Source of the DNA: Cupriavidus basilensis OR16
Lineage (GTDB): Bacteria; Pseudomonadota; Gammaproteobacteria; Burkholderiales; Burkholderiaceae
Assembly (NCBI RefSeq): GCF_000243095.1
Contig: NZ_AHJE01000057.1
Span: forward strand, 24,449 to 88,448
Reading direction: 5' to 3'
Length of the DNA: 64,000 nucleotides
Positions 23,086-47,313 of the stretch are shown one piece after another; position 1 is the first letter of the stretch, and each line of letters begins with the position of its first letter. The translations under genes and the position numbers were made by a program. The notes under the pieces were generated by a model. The model did no database searches. It was not told the origin of the DNA and saw only the letters and a list, made by a program, of their open reading frames with translations.

Positions 23086-24723
23086 TCAGAAGCGGAACCG
23101 CGCGACCCCCGCAGACAGGCCTGCCGCTTGCTGATCGAGGCTGGCCGCCTGTGCCGTGACGGCATCGACCAGCTCGGCGTTCTGCCGGCTGGTCTGGTCG
23201 AGCTGGGCCACCGCTTCGCCCACCGAGCGGATGCCGCGCGCCTGCTCATCGGCCACGCCGCACAGCCGCTCGGCCAGTTGGTGGCTTTGGCCCACCGCTT
23301 GTTCGATGCCGCGCATGGCGCTGACCACTTGCCCGCTCAGGCGCGCCCCGCGGGCGATCTCCGCGCTGGCCTGGCCGATGGTGGTGCGAATCTCGCGGGC
23401 GGAGTTGGCGCTGCGCTGTGCCAGCCCGCGCACCTCCTGCGCCACCACGGCGAAGCCGCGCCCGGCCTCGCCCGCGCGGGCCGCTTCCACGGCAGCGTTG
23501 AGCGCCAGGATATTGGTCTGGAAGGCAATGCTCTCGATCACCTCGACCATTTCCGCAATATTGCGCGAGTGCTGGTTCACGGTGTCCATGGCGCCGCTCA
23601 TCTCGTTCACCACGGCCATGCCTGCGTCGGTGGCTTCGCGCGCCTGGCGTGCCATCTCGCTGGATTCGGTGGCCTGGGCATGCGCTTGCCCGACCAGCGC
23701 GGTGAGGCTGGCGACGCTGTCGGCGGCGGCCGCCAAAGCGGTCGCCTGCAGCGCCGTGCGGCGCGACAGGTCCTGGTTGCCGCTGGCGATGCCGTCGCTG
23801 GCCGCGGCGATCTCGGCGGCGGAGAGCTGGATGCCTTCCAGCACACCGGCGAGCTGGTCGCGCATGCGCGCCAGCAGGCTCATCAGGCTGTGATCGTCGC
23901 CGGGGTGCACGCGCACTGCTTGCTGCAGGTCACCCGAGGCGATGCGGCTTGCCACCTTGGCCGCATCCGCCGGCTCCCCGCCCAACTCCGAGAGCAGCAG
24001 GCGCGAGGCGAACCACGCCAGCGCCGCCGCTGCCGCAAGGCTCGCCACCAGCATGCCGACCATCACGGCCTGGGCGCGCAACTGGCTTGTCGTCACCGTG
24101 GCGACCGTATCGGCGGCCTGCTGTTCCTGCTGCTTGCGCGCGACCTCGACCTGGTCGGCCAGCTTCTGCAATTGCTCGCCAAGAAAATGGCCGTCGACCG
24201 AAACGGAGCTGTCGAATTGCAACGCGTCCAGAGGCTGCTTGCGCAGCAGCGTGACATAGTCGCGCAGCATCGCCGCGGCGCTGTCGCGTTCGGCCTGCAG
24301 CGCCTTTGCCTGTGCGGGCACGGCCGTGCGCACGGTGGCAAGGGCCTGGTCGAGGCGCGCGAGGGCGCCATCGATGTCCGCCGTTGCGCTGTCGCGCTCG
24401 GTGCCGCTGGTGGCCATGGTCAGCGCCAGTTGGGCGCGGCCCAACTGCGCCAGTGCCGATTGCGCGCGCTCCGCGGCGATGGCGCCCTGCATGTCGCGTT
24501 GATAGAGCGTATCGGTCATCTGCTTGACCGATACCAGGCTGTAGATGCCTGTCAGCCCCACCACGGCGCCGAACACATAGACCAGCGCAAATGCCGCGCA
24601 CATGCGCGCACTGAGCGGAAGCCGGCCCAGCCAGGCGGGCATGCGCCGGCCGGCGCGGCGTGGGAGGCGAAGGTGGATGGCTTGCAACACGGTTGAGACT
24701 CCGATGGACCACGCGGTCCACAT
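23086..24723 (-). CDS. Methyl-accepting chemotaxis protein
   Basis: A chemoreceptor of about 545 residues. A hydrophobic segment ([20 protein letters not shown]) is followed by a roughly 140-residue periplasmic helical domain of the four-helix-bundle type, a second membrane segment ([20 protein letters not shown]), a HAMP linker and the signalling domain. The highly conserved hairpin tip [16 protein letters not shown] is present, as is GRGFAVVAQ. There is no C-terminal CheR-binding pentapeptide. The start at 24723 is a choice; a Met about 27 codons later is also possible. It stands alone, without che genes, beside an EAL protein. Confidence 0.9.
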
Positions 24724-34506: not shown

Positions 34507-35618
34507 ATGCTCAGCCCCTCCCTCATCGCGGCGATCGTGCTGGTGTTCCATGTGCTTGGCGTCATTGCGGCCTTGCACGCGGTCATGACGGTGCGTACCG
34601 CGCCCGGCGCCATTGCGTGGGCCGGCTCGCTGGTGATGATGCCGTACTTCACGCTGGTTCCTTACCTGATCCTGGGCAGCAGCAATTTTGCCGGCTACGT
34701 GAACGCCCGCCGGTTCAATAACGACCGGCTGCGCGAGGTCACGCACGGCATGGACCCCGGCCCGGCTTACCGGCACGCCTTGCCTGGCCAACAATGCGGT
34801 GCGGCTGCTGATCAATGGCGAGGCCACCTTCGAAGCCATCTTTGCCGCCATTGCCGGCGCGCAACAGGTGGTGATCGTGCAGTTTTTCATTGTTCATGAC
34901 GATGCGCTGGGCCAGCGCCTGCAGCGCCTGCTGTGCGAACGCGCTGCCGCGGGCGTGAAGGTGTATTTCCTCTACGACAGCATCGGCTCGCATGCGTTGC
35001 CAGGCCGGTACGTCAAGGTGCTGGCAGCCGCCGGGGTGCAGGCGCGCGCCTTTGCCACGCGGCGCGGCTTTGTCAATCGCTTCCAGCTCAACTTTCGCAA
35101 CCACCGCAAGCTGGTGGTGGTGGATGGCGAGTGCGCGTTCACGGGCGGTCACAACGTCGGCAACGAGTACCTCGGGCAAACGCCACCGCTGGCCCTGGCG
35201 CGACACGCATATCGAGATCCGCGGCAGCGCCGTGCTCGGGGTGGACGTACGCATCCTGTTGCCGGCCCGCCCCGACCATCTCGTGGTGTTCGCCGCCTCC
35301 ACGCTGTATGCCTACCAGGCGGTCTGCGCGGGGGTGAAGATCTATCGCTACCAGCCGGGCTTCCTGCACCAGAAGGTCATCCTGATCGACGACGAGGCCG
35401 CGGCGGTGGGCAGCGCGAATCTCGACAACCGCTCGTTCCGGCTCAACTTCGAGCTGATGGTGATGACCGCCGACCGTGCTTTTGCCGCAAGCGTGACACG
35501 CATGCTGGAGGCGGACTTCGCGCAGGCCTGCCAGATCGAGCGCAGCGAATACACCAGCGCGCCGACCCTGCGCCGCGTGGCGATGCACGTGGCCAAGCTG
35601 TTTGCGCCGATCCTCTAG
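34507..35618 (+). pseudogene. cls: Cardiolipin synthase (two HKD phospholipase-D domains), multiply broken
   Basis: The enzyme joins two phosphatidylglycerols into cardiolipin at the inner membrane. Two N-terminal membrane segments read in frame from 34507. The frame shifts near 34760-34790 and then gives the first HKD motif, HRKLVVVDG, with [10 protein letters not shown] further shift lies near 35180-35190. After IRGSAV the chain jumps to VDVRILLP, skipping about 110 residues usually present between the two halves. The second motif, HQKVILIDD with GSANLDNRS, and the C-terminus are intact. Three separate lesions in one gene with otherwise perfect motifs suggest sequence or assembly faults. 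Confidence 0.85.
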
Positions 35619-35639
35619 CCGCGGCCATGCGCCCCGTGC

Positions 35640-36110
35640 CTATAGATCCGCCTGCGCCGCCTGCCAGGAGGTGCCGGTTGGCCAGTCGCGGCGCATGATG
35701 ATGTAGGTAAAGGACGTGGACCAGCCGATCAGGATCAGGCCCACCAGCGGCTCGATGCTGGCAAGCAGGCGCGTGGCGCCGATCGGTGCGATGTCGCCCA
35801 GGCTTTGCGTGGTGAAGGTCTCAAGCGCGAAGTAGAGATAGACGATCGGCGTGATGGGATGGGCGCTGGCGAGGCCGCCCAGGCCCAGCGTATGGCCCGC
35901 CATCCAATAGCCGAGGGCGAACACCATCGCTTCAAGGCAATGGGCCAGGATGATGCAGACGATCAGCACGCCAACGTTGACGCGTCCGCTCCAGCGGCGC
36001 GGATTCATGCCTGACAGCAGGCGCAGGGCTTCATAGTGGATGGCGACCACGGTCACGGTGAGGATGCTGGCGCAGGCCAGGGCCAGCAGGTCGTGGACGG
36101 TGAGGTTCAT
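35640..36110 (-). CDS. Small two-pore-helix ion-channel-like membrane protein
   Basis: A 156-residue membrane protein with four hydrophobic stretches. The C-terminal half matches the two-TM potassium-channel (Ion_trans_2) pattern: a pore helix in [11 protein letters not shown], then SLGD where a filter such as TVGYGD would stand, then a final long hydrophobic helix ([20 protein letters not shown]). The filter is degenerate, so selectivity for potassium is doubtful. It faces the cardiolipin synthase gene tail to tail with 21 bases between them. Confidence 0.7.
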
Positions 36111-36982: not shown

Positions 36983-37675
36983 ATGCGCCAAGACTCTCCC
37001 GACTCGCCAGCCAGGCCTCCGCATGACCATGACCATGACCATGATCACGACCATGATCACGGCGGCAGCACGCTATCCGAGATGGACCTGCGCGTGCGCG
37101 CGCTGGAATCCCTGCTGGTGGAGAAGGGCTATGTCGACCCGGCCGCGCTGGATCTCCTGATCGAGACCTACGAGCAGCACATCGGCCCGCGCAACGGCGC
37201 GCGCGTGGTGGCCAAGGCCTGGGCCGATCCGGCCTACAAGGCGTGGCTGCTGGCGGACGCCACCGCGGCCATCGCCTCGCTCGGCTTCACCGGGCGCCAG
37301 GGCGAGCACATGATCGTGCTGGAGAACACGCCTGCGACCCACAACATGGTGGTGTGCACCCTGTGCTCCTGCTATCCCTGGCCAGTGCTGGGACTGCCGC
37401 CGGTCTGGTACAAGTCCGCGCCTTACCGCGCCCGGGCGGTGATCGACCCGCGCGGCGTGCTGCGCGATTTCGGTTTTACGCTGCCGCAGGCGGTGCAGAT
37501 CCAGGTGTGGGACTCCACCGCCGAGCTGCGCTACCTGGTGCTGCCCATGCGCCCGGCCGGGACCGAAGGCTGGAGCGAGCAAGCGCTGGCGGAACTGGTG
37601 ACCCGTGACGCAATGATCGGCACGGGGTTGCTGCCAGATGTGACCGTGCCGGCAACGGCAGGGGAGCCGCAATGA
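36983..37675 (+). CDS. nthA: Nitrile hydratase alpha subunit, cobalt type
   Basis: The metal-bearing subunit of nitrile hydratase, which hydrates nitriles to amides in the cytoplasm. It has 230 residues. The metal-claw motif CTLCSC spans Cys125, Cys128, Ser129 and Cys130; Thr after the first Cys is typical of the cobalt rather than the iron enzymes. The N-terminus is odd: residues 14-26 are alternating His and Asp, seven His in all, encoded by a six-base repeat. This could bind metal ions. The stop overlaps the beta-subunit start by four bases. Together with beta and accessory genes it makes a standard three-gene operon. Confidence 0.95.
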
Positions 37676-38722: not shown

Positions 38723-38893
38723 GGTGCCAAGGGGTAGATTTAACGTGACTTCCAGGCCAAAGACATGCCGCCGGCGGGCGTCCGGCCATTTGCCCGCCAG
38801 CGATCCGGCCCCGCTCGTGCTACCGTAGCGGACTAGACGCTATCAAGCGCCCCGATGCCGAGCCGCCAAGGCCGGCGCCAAACTCCGACTGAC

Positions 38894-39490
38894 ATGAACG
38901 ACACAGAGATCCAGCTGATCGGTTCGGCCCGCTTGCCGACCCGTTTTGGCGAATTTACCGCCCACGCCTTCAAGGGTGCCGTTTCGGGCATTGAACACCT
39001 TGCGCTGAGCGTCGGCGACATCACTGGCGAGGCCGTGCTGACCCGCCTGCACTCCGAATGCCTGACCGGCGACGTGTTCGGCTCGTGCCGTTGCGACTGT
39101 GGCGAACAGCTCGACCTGGCGATGAAGAAGATCGCCGAGGAAGGCCGCGGCATCCTGTTGTACCTGCGCGGGCAGGAAGGGCGCGGGATTGGCCTGGGCC
39201 ACAAGATCCGCGCCTATGCGCTGCAGGACGGCGGGCTCGACACGGTCGACGCCAACCTGGCGCTGGGCCAGGAGATTGACAGCCGCAACTACGCCTTTGC
39301 CGCCGACCTGCTGCATCAGTGGGGCGTCAAGTCGATCCGGCTGATGAGCAACAATCCAAAGAAGAAGCAGGCGCTGGAAGCCGCAGGCATCACGGTGGTC
39401 GAGCAGATGCGCCACATTGTCCCGTCCAACGTCGAGAACGAAAAATACCTGGAGACCAAGCGCGAGCGGATGGGGCACCTGCTGGATTGA
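38894..39490 (+). CDS. ribA: GTP cyclohydrolase II
   Basis: The first enzyme of riboflavin synthesis, opening GTP to a diaminopyrimidine with release of formate and diphosphate. It has 198 residues, a single-domain RibA of normal length and not fused to RibB. The zinc site is complete: Cys56 in HSECLTGD, with Cys67 and Cys69 in [10 protein letters not shown]. The catalytic [10 protein letters not shown] follows, and LMSNNPKK near the C-terminus is present. The start at 38894 (MNDTEIQ) was chosen over a Met 13 codons upstream. A strong stem-loop lies 29 bases after the stop. Confidence 0.95.
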
Positions 39491-39662: not shown

Positions 39663-41021
39663 ATGCTTGCCACGATTCGACGCAGATGCGGTGACAGCTT
39701 GGTGCGCCTGCGCCGCCTGCTGGCCAGGGAAGTACATCTCGATATCCGCCAGCCCGCGCAGATAAAGCGTATTCATTTGCTGGGATTGCTCGCCTTCGTC
39801 GGCTATCCGCTGTTTTACGTTGTCTGGAAGTATCTCTTTCCGCAACCGTACGAGAGCCTGACGCTGCGGCTGCTCGCCATGGTGATGTTCGCCCCGCTAA
39901 TTCTTACCGGCGACCTGCGCGATCGCAAATGGCTGCCGGCCTATTTCTTTGTCACGCTGACCTACGGGCTATCGTTCCTGTTCGTCTACTTGTATCTGAT
40001 GAATCACGGCAACCTGGTGTGGTCCCAGTCGCTGGTGATTGCCGTGGTCATCCTGTTCAATTTCAGCGGTTGGCTAGCGGGCGCCGCTTCGCTCGCACTG
40101 GGAACGGCCGGGGCCTGGCTGGTCTACCGCTGGATGACTCCGCCGGCTGAGATTCTTACGGTCGACTGGCTGATGGAGCTACCGATCATCGGCTTCACGA
40201 TCTGTACCGTCGCCGTGCTCAAGATCGACCAGCGCATCCTGATCCAGGAAAAACTCGACGGCATGGCGATCGCGCTGGGCACCGTTGCCCATGAGTTGCG
40301 CACGCCGATTCGCAGCATCGGCTCGACCGCGCGGGGCATGGCGCGTTACCTGCCCGGCTTGATTCGCTTCTATCAAGAAAACGAGACCCCGGCGAACACG
40401 CTGAACCTGCCGGCGGGACATTTCGGGCTGCTCAAGGACGCTTTGCCGCGTATCCAGCTTGAGGTTGACCGCATGAACCATGGCATCGACGTCCTGCTTG
40501 TGAACGCGCGGGTGGGTGCAATGCAGGAACCAAGCGAGGAGTTTCTCCTGGGCAACGCCATCAGCGAGGCCTTGGCGCGCTACCCCTTTGAAGCGGGGCA
40601 GCGCGAGAGCGTTCATGTCGATCTGGACGAGGATTTCATGGTGCGCGCGGACCAAAAACTCCTGGTCATGGTGCTGTTCAACCTCATCAAGAATGCGCTG
40701 CATGCCATGGCCCGGGCAGGTCATGGCGAAATCCGGCTGCGCACCGAGCGCGGCGCTCGCCGAAACCGGCTGATCTTCCGCGACACCGGCAGCGGCATTC
40801 CCGCGCGCGAGCTGTCATCGATCTTCAAGCGCTTTCATACTTACCCCCGCAACGAAGGCACGGGCATCGGCCTGGCCTTCTGCAAAGACACGCTGGAAGC
40901 ATGGAGTGGCCGCGTGCATTGCCACTCCGTCGAGCATGAGTACACGGAGTTCGTACTGGAGTTTCCTCCCGTCGCTGCGCCAGCCACGCCGGCCAGGGAG
41001 AGTGCCGGCGCGGCTGGCTAG
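39663..41021 (+). CDS. Membrane sensor histidine kinase, CqsS/LqsS-like
   Basis: A 452-residue kinase. Roughly six membrane segments lie between residues 36 and 185 with very short loops and no periplasmic domain, as in sensors of hydrophobic autoinducers. The H-box GTVAHELRTPIRS has its His at residue 210. The ATPase part has the N-box LFNLIKNALHAM, the G1 box FRDTGSGIP and GTGIGLAFCKD. There is no receiver domain, so it resembles LqsS/JqsS rather than the hybrid CqsS. Its gene ends 18 bases from the end of a CqsA/LqsA-like autoinducer synthase gene. No LqsR-type regulator is next to it. The start could be an ATG 21 codons earlier. Confidence 0.85.
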   Translation: MLATIRRRCGDSLVRLRRLLAREVHLDIRQPAQIKRIHLLGLLAFVGYPLFYVVWKYLFPQPYESLTLRLLAMVMFAPLILTGDLRDRKWLPAYFFVTLTYGLSFLFVYLYLMNHGNLVWSQSLVIAVVILFNFSGWLAGAASLALGTAGAWLVYRWMTPPAEILTVDWLMELPIIGFTICTVAVLKIDQRILIQEKLDGMAIALGTVAHELRTPIRSIGSTARGMARYLPGLIRFYQENETPANTLNLPAGHFGLLKDALPRIQLEVDRMNHGIDVLLVNARVGAMQEPSEEFLLGNAISEALARYPFEAGQRESVHVDLDEDFMVRADQKLLVMVLFNLIKNALHAMARAGHGEIRLRTERGARRNRLIFRDTGSGIPARELSSIFKRFHTYPRNEGTGIGLAFCKDTLEAWSGRVHCHSVEHEYTEFVLEFPPVAAPATPARESAGAAG

Positions 41022-41039
41022 GCGGCTTGCTTGCCGGGA

Positions 41040-42365
41040 TCAGGCGGCGCCGAACGCCGTTTCCAGCGCTTCGTGAGGCACTAGCGTTGAGGCCTGCCTG
41101 TCTGCGACCAGCCTGGCGCGAGGCGCATTTCGCAGCCGCTGGGTGGAGCGCCAGCTAGCCAGGCCGATCTCATCGCGGATCTCGGCGCAGACCTGGATCA
41201 GACGATCGATTTCCACGGCGGTCAGGCATGCGTTCATGGTCAGCCGCATCAGAGCCCGGTCACGCGCAGTGGCCGGCGCGCAGAACACGGCACCAAAGAT
41301 GCCGCGCGCCTGCAAGGCATTGCGCAACGCTAGCGTTTGCTGCTCCGTACCGGACTCCAGCGAGATGATCTGCTCCGATCCTGCCGACACGTTGTAGCCT
41401 AGGCCGGCAAGCGCACTGCGCACCTCGCCTGAGACCGCGTGCAACCGCGCCCGGCGATCATCGGCCGCGACAATAAAATCGGCGGCCGCATCGAACCACG
41501 CCAGTTCATGGTGCAACAGCCCCGAGCTGAAAATGGCGGGGCGCGACTCCATGGCGAAATAACCCTTGAACGAGGACGGGCAGGTGATCAATCCGGCCCG
41601 GCCACCAAAGGCTTTGGCGAGGCTGGCAGTCTGGAAATGGACCCGGCGCGACAGCCCGAGTTGCGCCACGAGCCCCGCGCCAGCGGGGCCGTGAGTGCCC
41701 AGGGAGTGAGACTCGTCGACCACCAGCACGCTCCCGGTGCGCTCTGCCACGTCCACGAAATCGGCCAGTGGGCACAGGCTACCATTGGTGCTATATACGG
41801 CATCCACCACGATGATGCCCGGGCCATCCTTGCGGATCTGGCGCTCGGCATGCTCAGCGTCGTTGTGGATGAAGGGAATGGCGCGGGCATGCGCGGCGTG
41901 CGCGCCTTCCCACAATGACATATGGGCCAGCATGTCCAGGTAGACAGGCGTGCGCTCATTGGCGATGCTCTGCAGCAAGCCCACGTTGGCAGCCCAGCCA
42001 GACTGGCACAGCAAGCTGTCCTCGGCGCCGGTGAACGCCGCCAGCTTGTGCTCGAGGCGGCTGGTGGGATTGTTACCGTGCAGGAAAATCGCCGACATCA
42101 GCAACTCGCTCTCCGGCCGGGACATCGCCGTGCTCTGGGCCGTGACCAGCGCCTGCTCGCCAAGCAGGCAAAGATAGTCGTTGCTGGAAAAATGCACCGC
42201 ATCGGGTCCGGGTTGCCGTCCGTGCAGCAAATGGCTGCCGCCCCAACGTTTCTGTACCCGTTCTACCTCGTGCTCCGCTACCCGCGTGGTGACAAAGTCT
42301 GGCCATGCCGCTGCCGCTCTCGACACGTTGGCAGTTTGCAGACAGGCCTGATTGGTATTGCTCAT
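41040..42365 (-). CDS. cqsA: Alpha-hydroxyketone autoinducer synthase (CqsA/LqsA-like)
   Basis: A PLP enzyme of the alpha-oxoamine synthase family, 441 residues. CqsA/LqsA condense an amino-acid-derived unit with an acyl-CoA to make signals such as CAI-1 and LAI-1. Seen here are HFSSNDYLCL near residue 58, HGNNPTSRLEHKL near 96, QSGWAANVGLLQS near 121, VVDESHSLGTHG with Asp217 and His220, and the PLP lysine in ASLAKAFGG (Lys251). HGNNPTSRLEH is closer to CqsA than to BioF or KBL, and no biotin genes are near. The start at 42365 follows AAGGGGAAAG. A 30-residue C-terminal extension is unusual. It faces a membrane sensor kinase, supporting a signalling role. Confidence 0.85.
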   Translation of the reverse strand: MSNTNQACLQTANVSRAAAAWPDFVTTRVAEHEVERVQKRWGGSHLLHGRQPGPDAVHFSSNDYLCLLGEQALVTAQSTAMSRPESELLMSAIFLHGNNPTSRLEHKLAAFTGAEDSLLCQSGWAANVGLLQSIANERTPVYLDMLAHMSLWEGAHAAHARAIPFIHNDAEHAERQIRKDGPGIIVVDAVYSTNGSLCPLADFVDVAERTGSVLVVDESHSLGTHGPAGAGLVAQLGLSRRVHFQTASLAKAFGGRAGLITCPSSFKGYFAMESRPAIFSSGLLHHELAWFDAAADFIVAADDRRARLHAVSGEVRSALAGLGYNVSAGSEQIISLESGTEQQTLALRNALQARGIFGAVFCAPATARDRALMRLTMNACLTAVEIDRLIQVCAEIRDEIGLASWRSTQRLRNAPRARLVADRQASTLVPHEALETAFGAA

Positions 42366-42592: not shown

Positions 42593-43444
42593 CTACATCT
42601 GCGCGAGGACCTCGGCGGGCGCGTTGGCGGGAAGCATTCCAACGGCTCGCGCAATCACGGCAGCGGCCGGATGAACCTTGTCCAGCTGCAGATATTCAGT
42701 AGGGGCGTGGCCCAGCACGCGGCGGAACATGGTCGAGAAAGCCGCCGGGCTCTCATAGCCGTAATCCAGGGCAATGCGGGTGACCGCGTCGCCAGCGGCC
42801 AGCCGTGACAGGGCCAGGACGACGCAGGCGCGCTGGCGCCATGCCGCGAACGCCATGCCGGTCTGCTCACGGAAAAAGCGGCTGAAGGTCCGGATGCTCA
42901 TATGCAGCGCCAGTGCCCAGCGCTGCGGCGAATCATGCGTGTCGGGCCGCTGCAGGAATGCGTGGCAAAGCGCTGCGAGCCGCGCATCGCGCGGCAGCGG
43001 AATATGCAAGGGTAGCGCCGTCATGCGGGCAACCTCATGCAGCAGCAGGGTCACCAGCGCGCCGTCCCGGCCTTGTGGATCGTAGTGCGCCGGCATCTCC
43101 ACGGCGCCAATCAGCAATTGCCGCATCAAGGCGGATACCCCCATCACCTGACAGGCGTCGCCCGGCCCGGGCATAGCGCCGGGCTCGATATACAGGCTAC
43201 GCGTGCTGACGCCCAGCATGGTCACTTCATGCTCTATCCCCGGCGGAATCCAGACCGCGCGCTGCGGCGGAACGATCCAGTTACCGTCGCGCGTAACCAC
43301 GTGCATCACACCCGTGACGCCATAGAGCAGTTGCGCGCGGCGATGGGCGTGGCGCGGCAACAGGTAGCCCTTCGGGTAGTCGGTGCCGATCGCGACCACG
43401 GGCCTGGGCACGTGGTCGTAGTCGTCGATGCGGGCGTTGAGCAT
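42593..43444 (-). CDS. AraC-family transcriptional regulator
   Basis: A regulator of 283 residues with an N-terminal cupin-like sensing domain (HAHRRAQLLYG) and a C-terminal double helix-turn-helix at about residues 180-280. There SIRTFSRFFREQTG and GYESPAAFSTMFRRVLGHAPTEYL are typical. The start at 43444 (MLNARIDD) is a choice; a Met 30 codons earlier exists. It is divergent from a TSUP permease gene, which it may control, and lies upstream of the autoinducer synthase on the same strand, 227 bases away. Confidence 0.88.
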   Translation of the reverse strand: MLNARIDDYDHVPRPVVAIGTDYPKGYLLPRHAHRRAQLLYGVTGVMHVVTRDGNWIVPPQRAVWIPPGIEHEVTMLGVSTRSLYIEPGAMPGPGDACQVMGVSALMRQLLIGAVEMPAHYDPQGRDGALVTLLLHEVARMTALPLHIPLPRDARLAALCHAFLQRPDTHDSPQRWALALHMSIRTFSRFFREQTGMAFAAWRQRACVVLALSRLAAGDAVTRIALDYGYESPAAFSTMFRRVLGHAPTEYLQLDKVHPAAAVIARAVGMLPANAPAEVLAQM

Positions 43445-43593
43445 GGAGGGTACGGGCGGCGGAAGGGATGGGCGGCCGCATGGCTGGTTGGCCGAAATAC
43501 AAATATTATTGACCAATCTTCGAAAGTTGGCCATGCCAACCGCACGTATCGTGAGTGGACCTGGAACCCCCTGGAACCCATTCCTCCTTAGCG

Positions 43594-45452: not shown

Positions 45453-46538
45453 TCACGACTCGGCATCCGCATCCAGCACGCCGATCAGGTCGGCCGCCAC
45501 GGAGCGCCGCGCATCGGCCGCCCGGAAATACCGTACCAGCGTGGCCACGCTGGTGTGCCCGGTCATGGCCATGGTTTCAGCCAGCGGAACCTGGCGCGAA
45601 GCTGCCTCGGTCACGAACCCCGAGCGCAGCGAGTGCGCCGAGAAATCTCCCTCCAGCCCAGCCTCCTCGCAGCGCTGCATGACGATCTTGCGCACGGCGG
45701 CGGCGGACAGTGCCTCGCCTACATGACCACCACGACGGATGCGCCGGAAGATGGCGCCATCGCCTATCCCTGCCGCCTTCAGCCAGGCCTCCAGCGCCGC
45801 GCCCGCCGCGCCGATGACCGGCTTGGCGTTGTCCGGCAGGTCGGCGCCGGCCTGATTGGTCTTGGACCAGCCGAGTTGATAGACAAACTCCCCCGGACCC
45901 AAGCCCCGCAAGGTGGCTAACGTGGCGCCTGCCACTTCCGAGCGCCGCCGGCCGCCACTGGACCAGGCGAACAGCAGCAGCGCGCGGTCGCGCAGGCCGA
46001 TCAGCGAGTCGTCACAGGTTGCCAGCAAGCGGGAAAACGGCTCACGCGTCAGCGCTGCCTTGCGCGCCGGGCGCTCGCCGCGCTTGGCATAGGCCCGGCG
46101 CGTGCGGGCCACCAGTTCACGAACGGCCGGGTCCGCGCAGGGGTTATCCAGGGTTTCCAGCCGGTGCGCCTTGGCAATGACGGCCAGCCGGTGCATCAGC
46201 GTGGCTAATGCCGGTGGGCCAATGCGCGCCTTGAGGCCACGGGCGACCAGTGCCGCGTCGATGGCAGGCGGCATTTCGTTGACCGGGCCCTGGGGCGTGG
46301 TCCGTGTGGCGTGGTCTACGACGAACTGGATGATGACCGACGGCAGCAAAGGGAGGGCGATCGGCTGGCCGTAACGCAGGGCGAACCAGCCCGCCCAATA
46401 CCGAAGCGCGGAACGATAGCTGGCCACCGTGTTGGCGGATTCGCCTTCGCGGTACAGCGCTTCGGCGGCCTGGCGGCCAAGCGGATCGAGTTCGGACGGG
46501 CAGAGCGGCGCGGGAAAATCGGCATGAACGGGCTTCAG
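45453..46538 (-). CDS. Tyrosine recombinase / site-specific integrase
   Basis: A phage-type integrase of about 360 residues. An N-terminal core-binding part (ESANTVASYRSALRYWAGWF) is followed by the catalytic domain: the first Arg in GGRRRSEVAG, the His-x-x-Arg in HSLRSGF, and the nucleophile Tyr in VRYFRA with TGHTSVA before it. It is complete at the C-terminus. The start is uncertain: no ATG is in frame near the N-terminus, and the position given is a CTG; an ATG at 46575 lies in another frame, so a small indel near 46540 is possible. It is divergent from a KfrA-like gene. This pair may mark an inserted element. Confidence 0.85.
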   Translation of the reverse strand: MKPVHADFPAPLCPSELDPLGRQAAEALYREGESANTVASYRSALRYWAGWFALRYGQPIALPLLPSVIIQFVVDHATRTTPQGPVNEMPPAIDAALVARGLKARIGPPALATLMHRLAVIAKAHRLETLDNPCADPAVRELVARTRRAYAKRGERPARKAALTREPFSRLLATCDDSLIGLRDRALLLFAWSSGGRRRSEVAGATLATLRGLGPGEFVYQLGWSKTNQAGADLPDNAKPVIGAAGAALEAWLKAAGIGDGAIFRRIRRGGHVGEALSAAAVRKIVMQRCEEAGLEGDFSAHSLRSGFVTEAASRQVPLAETMAMTGHTSVATLVRYFRAADARRSVAADLIGVLDADAES

Positions 46539-46634
46539 GCTGGTACAACATGACCAGATAAAGCGCGATAACCATTCATTATCGTGCCTTATTGATGGGC
46601 GGCAAGCAAAGCCGCCCAAAAACTTGCCCGGACC

Positions 46635-47313
46635 ATGCAAAACGCCACTCTTCCCGCCGCACGCTCCCGTTCCATTACCCAGCAAGACGTCTGGCAAGCT
46701 GCCGATGCCTTGCTGCTGGCCGGCCAGCGTCCAACCATCGAACGGATCCGCCTGCACCTGGGGCGCGGCTCGCCCAATACCGTCAGCCCGTACCTGGATG
46801 CCTGGTTTGCCGGGCTGGGCGCGCGTTTGCAGGATCCGCAGGCGTTTGCGGCACCAGCCAGCCTGCCCGAGCCGGTGAACCAGGCCGCGCGGTACTATAG
46901 ACGCGCTGCGGCGCGATACCGCTAGCCAGCGTGCCGCGTGGGACAAGGAGCGGGAAACCATGGCGGATCGCTTTGGCGCCAACGAGCGGCGCATGGCGCT
47001 CGAACTGGACGCGGCGCGGGTGGCGCTGCGGGAAGGGCAGCGCCAGATGGATGCAGAGCGCAAGGCGGCCCAGCAAAGACTGGCGGATGTGGCCGAGGCC
47101 GCGGGGCGGCAGGCCGAGGAACTGGCAACGGTGGGGAATGCCGTGGCGGTGCTGAACGAGCGGGTCCGGCAGCAGGACGGCTTGCTGGCCGAGTACCGTC
47201 AGCTCCTGGAGAGCCGCGGCGAGCCGGAGCCGGATATGCTGCGGGCCGTGCGCCCGCCGGTGCGCAAGGCCCGCCCGATCCGGCCGGCGCGGCCACCACG
47301 TTTCAAGGTCTAG
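46635..47313 (+). pseudogene. KfrA-like DNA-binding protein, frameshifted
   Basis: The N-terminal 85 residues match the KfrA_N domain of plasmid regulators: ITQQDVWQAADALLLAGQRPTIERI and GSPNTVSPYLDAW. At about 46897-46899 one base is gained or lost; the frame then continues as DALRRDTASQRAAWDKER and a long alanine-rich coiled coil to the stop at 47313. Repaired, it would be about 225 residues with helix-turn-helix plus coiled coil, as KfrA has. In plasmids KfrA is a repressor and nucleoid-like filament protein; chromosomal copies often lie beside integrases, as here. Confidence 0.78.

Follow-up and report, generated by a model that had tools for sequence, protein, structure and literature searches.

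Described alpha-hydroxyketone (AHK) quorum-sensing systems differ in how the signal synthase, the sensor kinase and the regulator are arranged. In Vibrio, the partner of the synthase CqsA is CqsS, a hybrid kinase whose receiver feeds LuxU/LuxO (PMC3285556, PMC3376566). In Legionella pneumophila, the kinase LqsS is receiver-less, and LqsR lies inside the cluster with LqsA and LqsS (PMC3376566). Janthinobacterium sp. HH01 encodes a betaproteobacterial AHK synthase, JqsA, beside the kinase JqsS and an adjacent JqsR; deletion alters violacein, and cqsA and lqsA complement it (PMC3566124, PMC5080296). The Cupriavidus lqsA/lqsS genes have no adjacent regulator, and a single LqsR-family regulator, phcX/lqsR, is uncoupled from them and lies elsewhere near the phc genes (PMC10653808). 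Here, we describe a convergent kinase–synthase gene pair in a 64,000-nucleotide stretch of Cupriavidus basilensis OR16 (positions 24,449 to 88,448 of contig NZ_AHJE01000057.1; G000:C360:24449-88448, where G, C, and L numbers are our labels for genomes, contigs, and loci), hereafter the window. The draft genome comprises 8.5 Mb in 416 contigs, with 5.1% contamination.

The coordinates, strands and facing orientation of the two genes, and the 18-base distance between their flanking stop codons, are as given in a preliminary description of the locus (Table 1). Like the described Cupriavidus lqsA/lqsS, the pair has no adjacent regulator. In contrast to the usual Cupriavidus pair, its genes are convergent, belong to a separate lineage, and occupy a different chromosomal site, with identities of 61–65% for the synthase in the search (59–62% over the alignment) and 39–43% for the kinase. 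The text seen of PMC10653808 does not name C. basilensis, and a search over best-ranked matches, mostly abstract openings, found no record naming this convergent pair type. An AHK synthase adjoining a kinase recalls Janthinobacterium, and the combination of a receiver-less kinase, an AHK synthase and an LqsR-family regulator in the genome recalls Legionella; however, JqsR is adjacent and LqsR lies inside the cluster in those organisms, whereas the window pair has no adjacent regulator of that family and the genome's LqsR-family gene is on another contig. The convergent order is shared with six Vibrio-like loci that we fetched, none of which gave a regulator match, and catalytic and receptor residues are shared with CqsA/CqsS. 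The pair is more than a chance arrangement: five further Cupriavidus genomes carry both genes at 79–86% identity. Both gene starts are preserved in the two relatives inspected (L010 and L011). The two genes very probably produce and perceive a small ketone signal; they belong to a known type of system but form a distinct branch of it, with the likely regulator elsewhere in the genome. From sequence comparisons, we consider AHK production and sensing by the pair with output through LqsR/PhcX reasonably likely, the output step being one that we infer.

Profile, structure-database, and phylogenetic comparisons all place the synthase with CqsA/LqsA-like enzymes and apart from BioF and KBL, as had been proposed. 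Its score is 568.3 bits against the NF005526 profile for alpha-hydroxyketone-type quorum-sensing autoinducer synthases (cut-off 428), compared with 227 bits on the BioF profile (cut-off 426.45) and 177 bits on the KBL profile (cut-off 460). The best match among solved structures is V. cholerae CqsA (347 bits), with KBL next (123 bits). Identity to CqsA is 44% over 374 columns. The HGNNPTSRLEH motif and the pyridoxal phosphate (PLP) lysine named in the preliminary description are both present, Lys251 aligning with the PLP lysine Lys236 of CqsA, and biotin genes are likewise absent among the genes scanned or translated around the pair. A BioF- or KBL-type housekeeping enzyme would share the common enzyme superfamily, in keeping with the 24–26% identity of the synthase to six BioF/KBL-type rows, but this identity is contradicted by the scores far under the respective cut-offs, by the tree position described below, and by the genome's own BioF on C406 (432.6 bits) and KBL on C361 (617 bits), both on other contigs; we give it a negligible probability.

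In a finished tree of 38 rows, 32 AHK-type rows including V. cholerae CqsA form one branch (99/97), which takes in the window synthase and is separate from the rows of KBL and BioF. This tree comprises the 49 rows of a first tree minus 15, plus four BioF/KBL-type rows, and contains no LqsA or JqsA row; among its rows, L239 and L242 are long, and the letter make-up of five, CqsA included, is unusual. L239, an enzyme of the same genome on a long branch that scores below the curated cut-offs of its matched models, branches next to the AHK branch. The first tree, which was unfinished and had an unsuitable outgroup and long branches, did not resolve the base of the AHK group. By family, the enzyme is very probably an AHK synthase, and its predicted product is an AHK or an amino precursor. 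Seven of the nine acyl-pocket residues given for CqsA (PMC3285556) are the same in the window synthase, the substitutions being V32 to Leu47 and F257 to Met272. Position 257 is variable in the AHK family, with Ala in three of five window-type rows and Val in the usual Cupriavidus rows.

The kinase is supported as a receiver-less CqsS/LqsS-type receptor with AHK-recognition residues and predicted ligand binding. Pfam matches comprise HATPase_c above and HisKA below the cut-off, and no Response_reg match was found at E values up to 0.1, so the proposed lack of a receiver stands. Hydropathy also agrees with the proposed six or so membrane segments (roughly residues 36–59, 64–86, 91–113, 115–137, 138–154, and 167–190). 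An AlphaFold model of middling confidence (mean pLDDT 70.6) shows five long helices over this stretch, one of which has 41 residues and is possibly two; six segments are therefore likely but not certain. The loci yielded 127 full-length kinase reading frames, many of them the same gene met again in an overlapping locus; 35 entered the alignment. The positions of the CqsS AHK-recognition residues W104, S107, and F162 and of CqsS H194 (PMC3376566) are invariant in all 35 aligned kinases (W120, S123, F178, and H210 in the window kinase). At the position of CqsS C170, the residue that determines tail length in Vibrio and is F in V. harveyi (PMC3285556), the window kinase has Leu (L186), in contrast to the Cys or Phe of CqsS; Leu is found in all six window-type kinases, Ile in eight other Cupriavidus kinases, and Phe in six Vibrio-like kinases. 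A by-eye comparison of synthase position 257 with receptor position 170 across lineages gave no clean pattern, and we did not retain this link. The kinase tree separates the window type (100/100) from the eight other Cupriavidus kinases (100/99). Kinases with an LqsS-like catalytic core (33–38% identity) and a different sensor part were also seen (L105 11605-13095, L106 8267-9721, and others); they occur in many Cupriavidus genomes with or without the pair, and none was found in G000 at E values up to 1e-25.

Within the genus, synthase and kinase strictly co-occur: the synthase is present in 38 of 60 Cupriavidus genomes, a full-length kinase in the same 38, and neither in the remaining 22. Six genomes carry the window-type pair (G000, G021, G023, G061, G062, and G075). 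The two genes lie side by side in four of the five genomes other than OR16; in G062, they are at the ends of two contigs. Named synthase relatives counted within the six are those of C. basilensis GW210010_S58, C. basilensis KF708, and 'Burkholderiaceae bacterium 16' (82–86% identity). Of the 39 genus synthases, 12 entered the synthase tree, where they fall into three Cupriavidus lineages: the window type, the usual type (100/100), and one found in G001 and G023 (100/99). Window-type synthases group with solitary synthases of Pseudomonas (100/99).

Several further occurrences of these families were recorded. The solitary genes of Pseudomonas lini/fluorescens lie at L112 7959-9185, L113 7998-9176, and L115 7890-9188; the two tested exceed the NF005526 cut-off, and no kinase or regulator match was found within ~8 kb of them. 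Actinomycete synthase relatives share 44–52% identity (L138, L150, L152, L153, L155, L157, L161, L158, L162–L167, and L169), and no full-length LqsS-type kinase was matched near them within the stretches fetched; on NF005526, one Streptomyces protein scores above the cut-off (465 bits) and one Nocardia protein below it (353 bits). A further synthase in G023 (L101 8387-9610; G023:C2) belongs to a different Cupriavidus lineage and shows no kinase match in the surrounding 18 kb. The same contig holds a divergent, weakly LqsS-/LqsR-like kinase–regulator pair (L100 4010-7754) beside an integrase gene (Pfam), with no adjoining synthase match. G061 also carries an LqsR-like fragment.

The preliminary description correctly noted that no LqsR-type regulator adjoins the pair, but the new output path it drew from this is not supported by a genome-wide search. 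With a profile made from two LqsR-like proteins adjoining kinases, we found a single LqsR-family match in the genome (G000:C397:106077-107057, 414.8 bits), on a contig other than that of the pair. No LqsR-family gene lies next to the pair in the window, which thus holds no complete lqsA-lqsR-lqsS cluster; taken broadly, with the regulator counted anywhere in the genome, an Lqs system is present. The regulator is present in 59 of 60 Cupriavidus genomes and in all 54 of good quality, the exception being G062, a contaminated draft in 730 contigs; its uncoupling from lqsA/lqsS had already been published (PMC10653808). The DYSMP aspartate motif is intact in all 37 genus regulators aligned (of 59 found). 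Genes ~13 kb from the regulator in G000 encode a methyltransferase and a kinase, along with a receiver-HisKA protein and an ATPase fragment; read with the aid of PMC10653808, they resemble phcBSR(Q). The G000 regulator is the PhcX orthologue. In G001 (C3), phc-like genes (154333-159235) are followed by a kinase–synthase pair of another lineage (159678-162359), and the regulator (138026-139072) is ~20 kb from the kinase on the same contig, so that all three elements lie within ~24 kb. Two stretches of this contig (L285 2334-10360 and L284 1527-2573) show Lqs and Phc genes in one neighborhood.

Gene order in relatives bears on the connection between kinase and regulator. The lqsS-type and lqsR-type genes are adjacent in nine relatives, which ties the kinase family to the regulator family. 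In seven of these (G051, G058, G240, G123, G400, G102, and G441), lqsS and then lqsR face a convergent synthase gene, and the lqsR-type gene occupies the position of the 18-base gap in the window; the other two are co-directional (G236) and divergent (G042). The usual Cupriavidus order is synthase then kinase on the same strand. The facing pair of the window may therefore preserve the old order minus the intervening regulator gene, and the same-strand arrangement usual in Cupriavidus may be a rearranged one. Over the HisKA region, window-type kinases share a mean identity of 0.315 with the nine regulator-linked kinases, versus 0.272 for seven other Cupriavidus kinases. These identities, together with those of the first helix given below, neither prove nor exclude a link between the kinase and LqsR.

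We propose that the synthase would condense a fatty acyl coenzyme A with an amino-acid-derived substrate on PLP, yielding an AHK or its amino precursor. The AHK would accumulate with cell density and bind the neighboring kinase in its membrane domain, and binding would shift the kinase/phosphatase balance at H210. Phosphate would then pass to the genome's single LqsR-family regulator, the PhcX orthologue, whose gene lies on a contig other than that of the pair, ~13 kb from the phc-like genes. The family membership of both proteins, their co-occurrence in the genus, and the presence and conservation of the regulator are established.

Several points weigh against this proposal. Product formation, ligand binding, and phosphotransfer are predicted steps. 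In the tree, the nearest neighbors of the window-type synthases are the solitary Pseudomonas genes, which show no kinase or regulator match within ~8 kb. Within the genus, the regulator is present in all 22 genomes that lack synthase and kinase, and it must therefore have work that does not need the pair; of the 37 genomes with both pair and regulator, 36 have them on different contigs. Identity to the regulator-linked kinases over the first DHp helix is slightly lower for the window type (0.451) than for the other Cupriavidus kinases (0.480). Finally, the JAI-1 promoter motif TTGAN6/7TCAA (PMC5080296) has one match in the window against 0.61 expected, and at least one match arose in 43 of 100 shuffles; with a single match near chance level, the motif is unsupported as a sign of a local regulon.

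Two alternatives draw on these points. The metabolite made by the enzyme might be no signal at all, with the kinase sensing something else. The relatives in Pseudomonas, Streptomyces, and Nocardia that lack an adjoining full-length LqsS-type kinase would fit such a role, but the occurrence of synthase and kinase in the same 38 Cupriavidus genomes and the AHK-recognition residues retained by the kinase argue for signaling, and we regard a non-signal metabolite as very unlikely. Alternatively, signal and receptor could be as proposed while the kinase signals to another response regulator, PhcX having been given over to the Phc network. The separate contigs of pair and regulator, the retention of the regulator in pair-less genomes, and the slightly lower first-helix identity are all consistent with this possibility, as is PMC10653808, which proposes a rewiring of PhcX in Ralstonia and cites work in C. 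taiwanensis in which both systems function and few Lqs effects were seen. On the other hand, the genome holds only one LqsR-family match, lqsS- and lqsR-type genes adjoin each other in the nine relatives, the G001 pair lies close to both the phc-like genes and the regulator, and the kinase has not diverged from regulator-linked kinases over the whole HisKA region. Diversion to another regulator appears rather unlikely, and we favor signaling through LqsR/PhcX.

Table 1. Convergent kinase–synthase pair and adjoining genes, in window positions
Feature	Positions	Strand	Basis
LqsS/CqsS-type sensor histidine kinase, 452 aa, no receiver, H210 phospho-acceptor	39663..41021	+	profile matches, alignment, hydropathy, kinase tree, model
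Alpha-hydroxyketone-type autoinducer synthase (LqsA/CqsA family), 441 aa, PLP Lys251 (by family)	41040..42365	-	profile match, structure match, tree, alignment
18-base gap separating two convergent stop codons	41022..41039	.	ORF (open reading frame) coordinates
GTP cyclohydrolase II (ribA), directly upstream of kinase	38855..39490	+	profile match, locus comparison
AraC-family regulator upstream of synthase, same strand	42593..43534	-	profile match, locus comparison

The AraC-family gene offers a different, one-component output, in which its product would act as the output or as the ligand sensor along a new path. It is the nearest regulator gene, lies 227 bases upstream of the synthase start on the same strand, and was found, together with a TauE gene, beside the window-type pair in four of six genomes. 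However, G021 and G075 showed neither gene next to their pairs, and the AraC protein has no receiver match to accept phosphate. With the AraC gene found at only four of the six pairs, it is probably not an essential part of the pair, and we disfavor it as the output, considering such a path very improbable indeed.

The pair lies inside a block bounded by a phospholipase-D-like gene (Pfam name) and a gene for a 141-residue protein that is present in 59 of 60 genus genomes. A RibA gene precedes the kinase and the 141-residue gene is found at all six window-type pairs, with the G062 neighborhood read across two contigs; nitrile hydratase is found at five (not G021). Among the stretches fetched from these six, only those of G000 and G062 showed the phospholipase gene. 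In five of six comparison genomes that carry no window-type pair, only 1.7–3.7 kb separates the phospholipase match from the 141-residue match, and no block gene was matched in any of the six comparison stretches; the phospholipase gene was not found in the sixth. None of the window's neighbor genes accompanies the four usual-type pairs whose neighborhoods we inspected. The block therefore resembles an insertion, specific to this lineage, at a constant site. ribA is part of the local block, and a functional link to the pair is unproven; no other gene of the genome exceeds the RibA cut-off. At its start, the alpha subunit of the nitrile hydratase (36983-37675) carries a His-Asp repeat that may form a metal-binding tail. 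The two halves of the phospholipase-D-like gene (34799-35698) match in different overlapping frames, and the gene looks frame-broken in the draft. A phage-integrase-family gene (45453-47063, 51.2 bits) is also matched beside the 141-residue gene in several congeners.

The window pair adds a separate branch of AHK signaling in Cupriavidus, where the regulator is near-universal and the signal–sensor pair comes and goes. One possible organization, which we offer tentatively, is that a single core regulator, LqsR/PhcX, tied to the phc genes, is served by exchangeable synthase–sensor cassettes, with the C. basilensis group holding its own cassette and possibly a private AHK dialect. The cassette of this group differs in receptor and synthase pocket residues. 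If this organization is correct, two chemically different quorum signals would meet on one regulator within the genus. The locus thus raises the question of AHK action through LqsR/PhcX, and of whether lineages of one genus use different AHK dialects via the same regulator.

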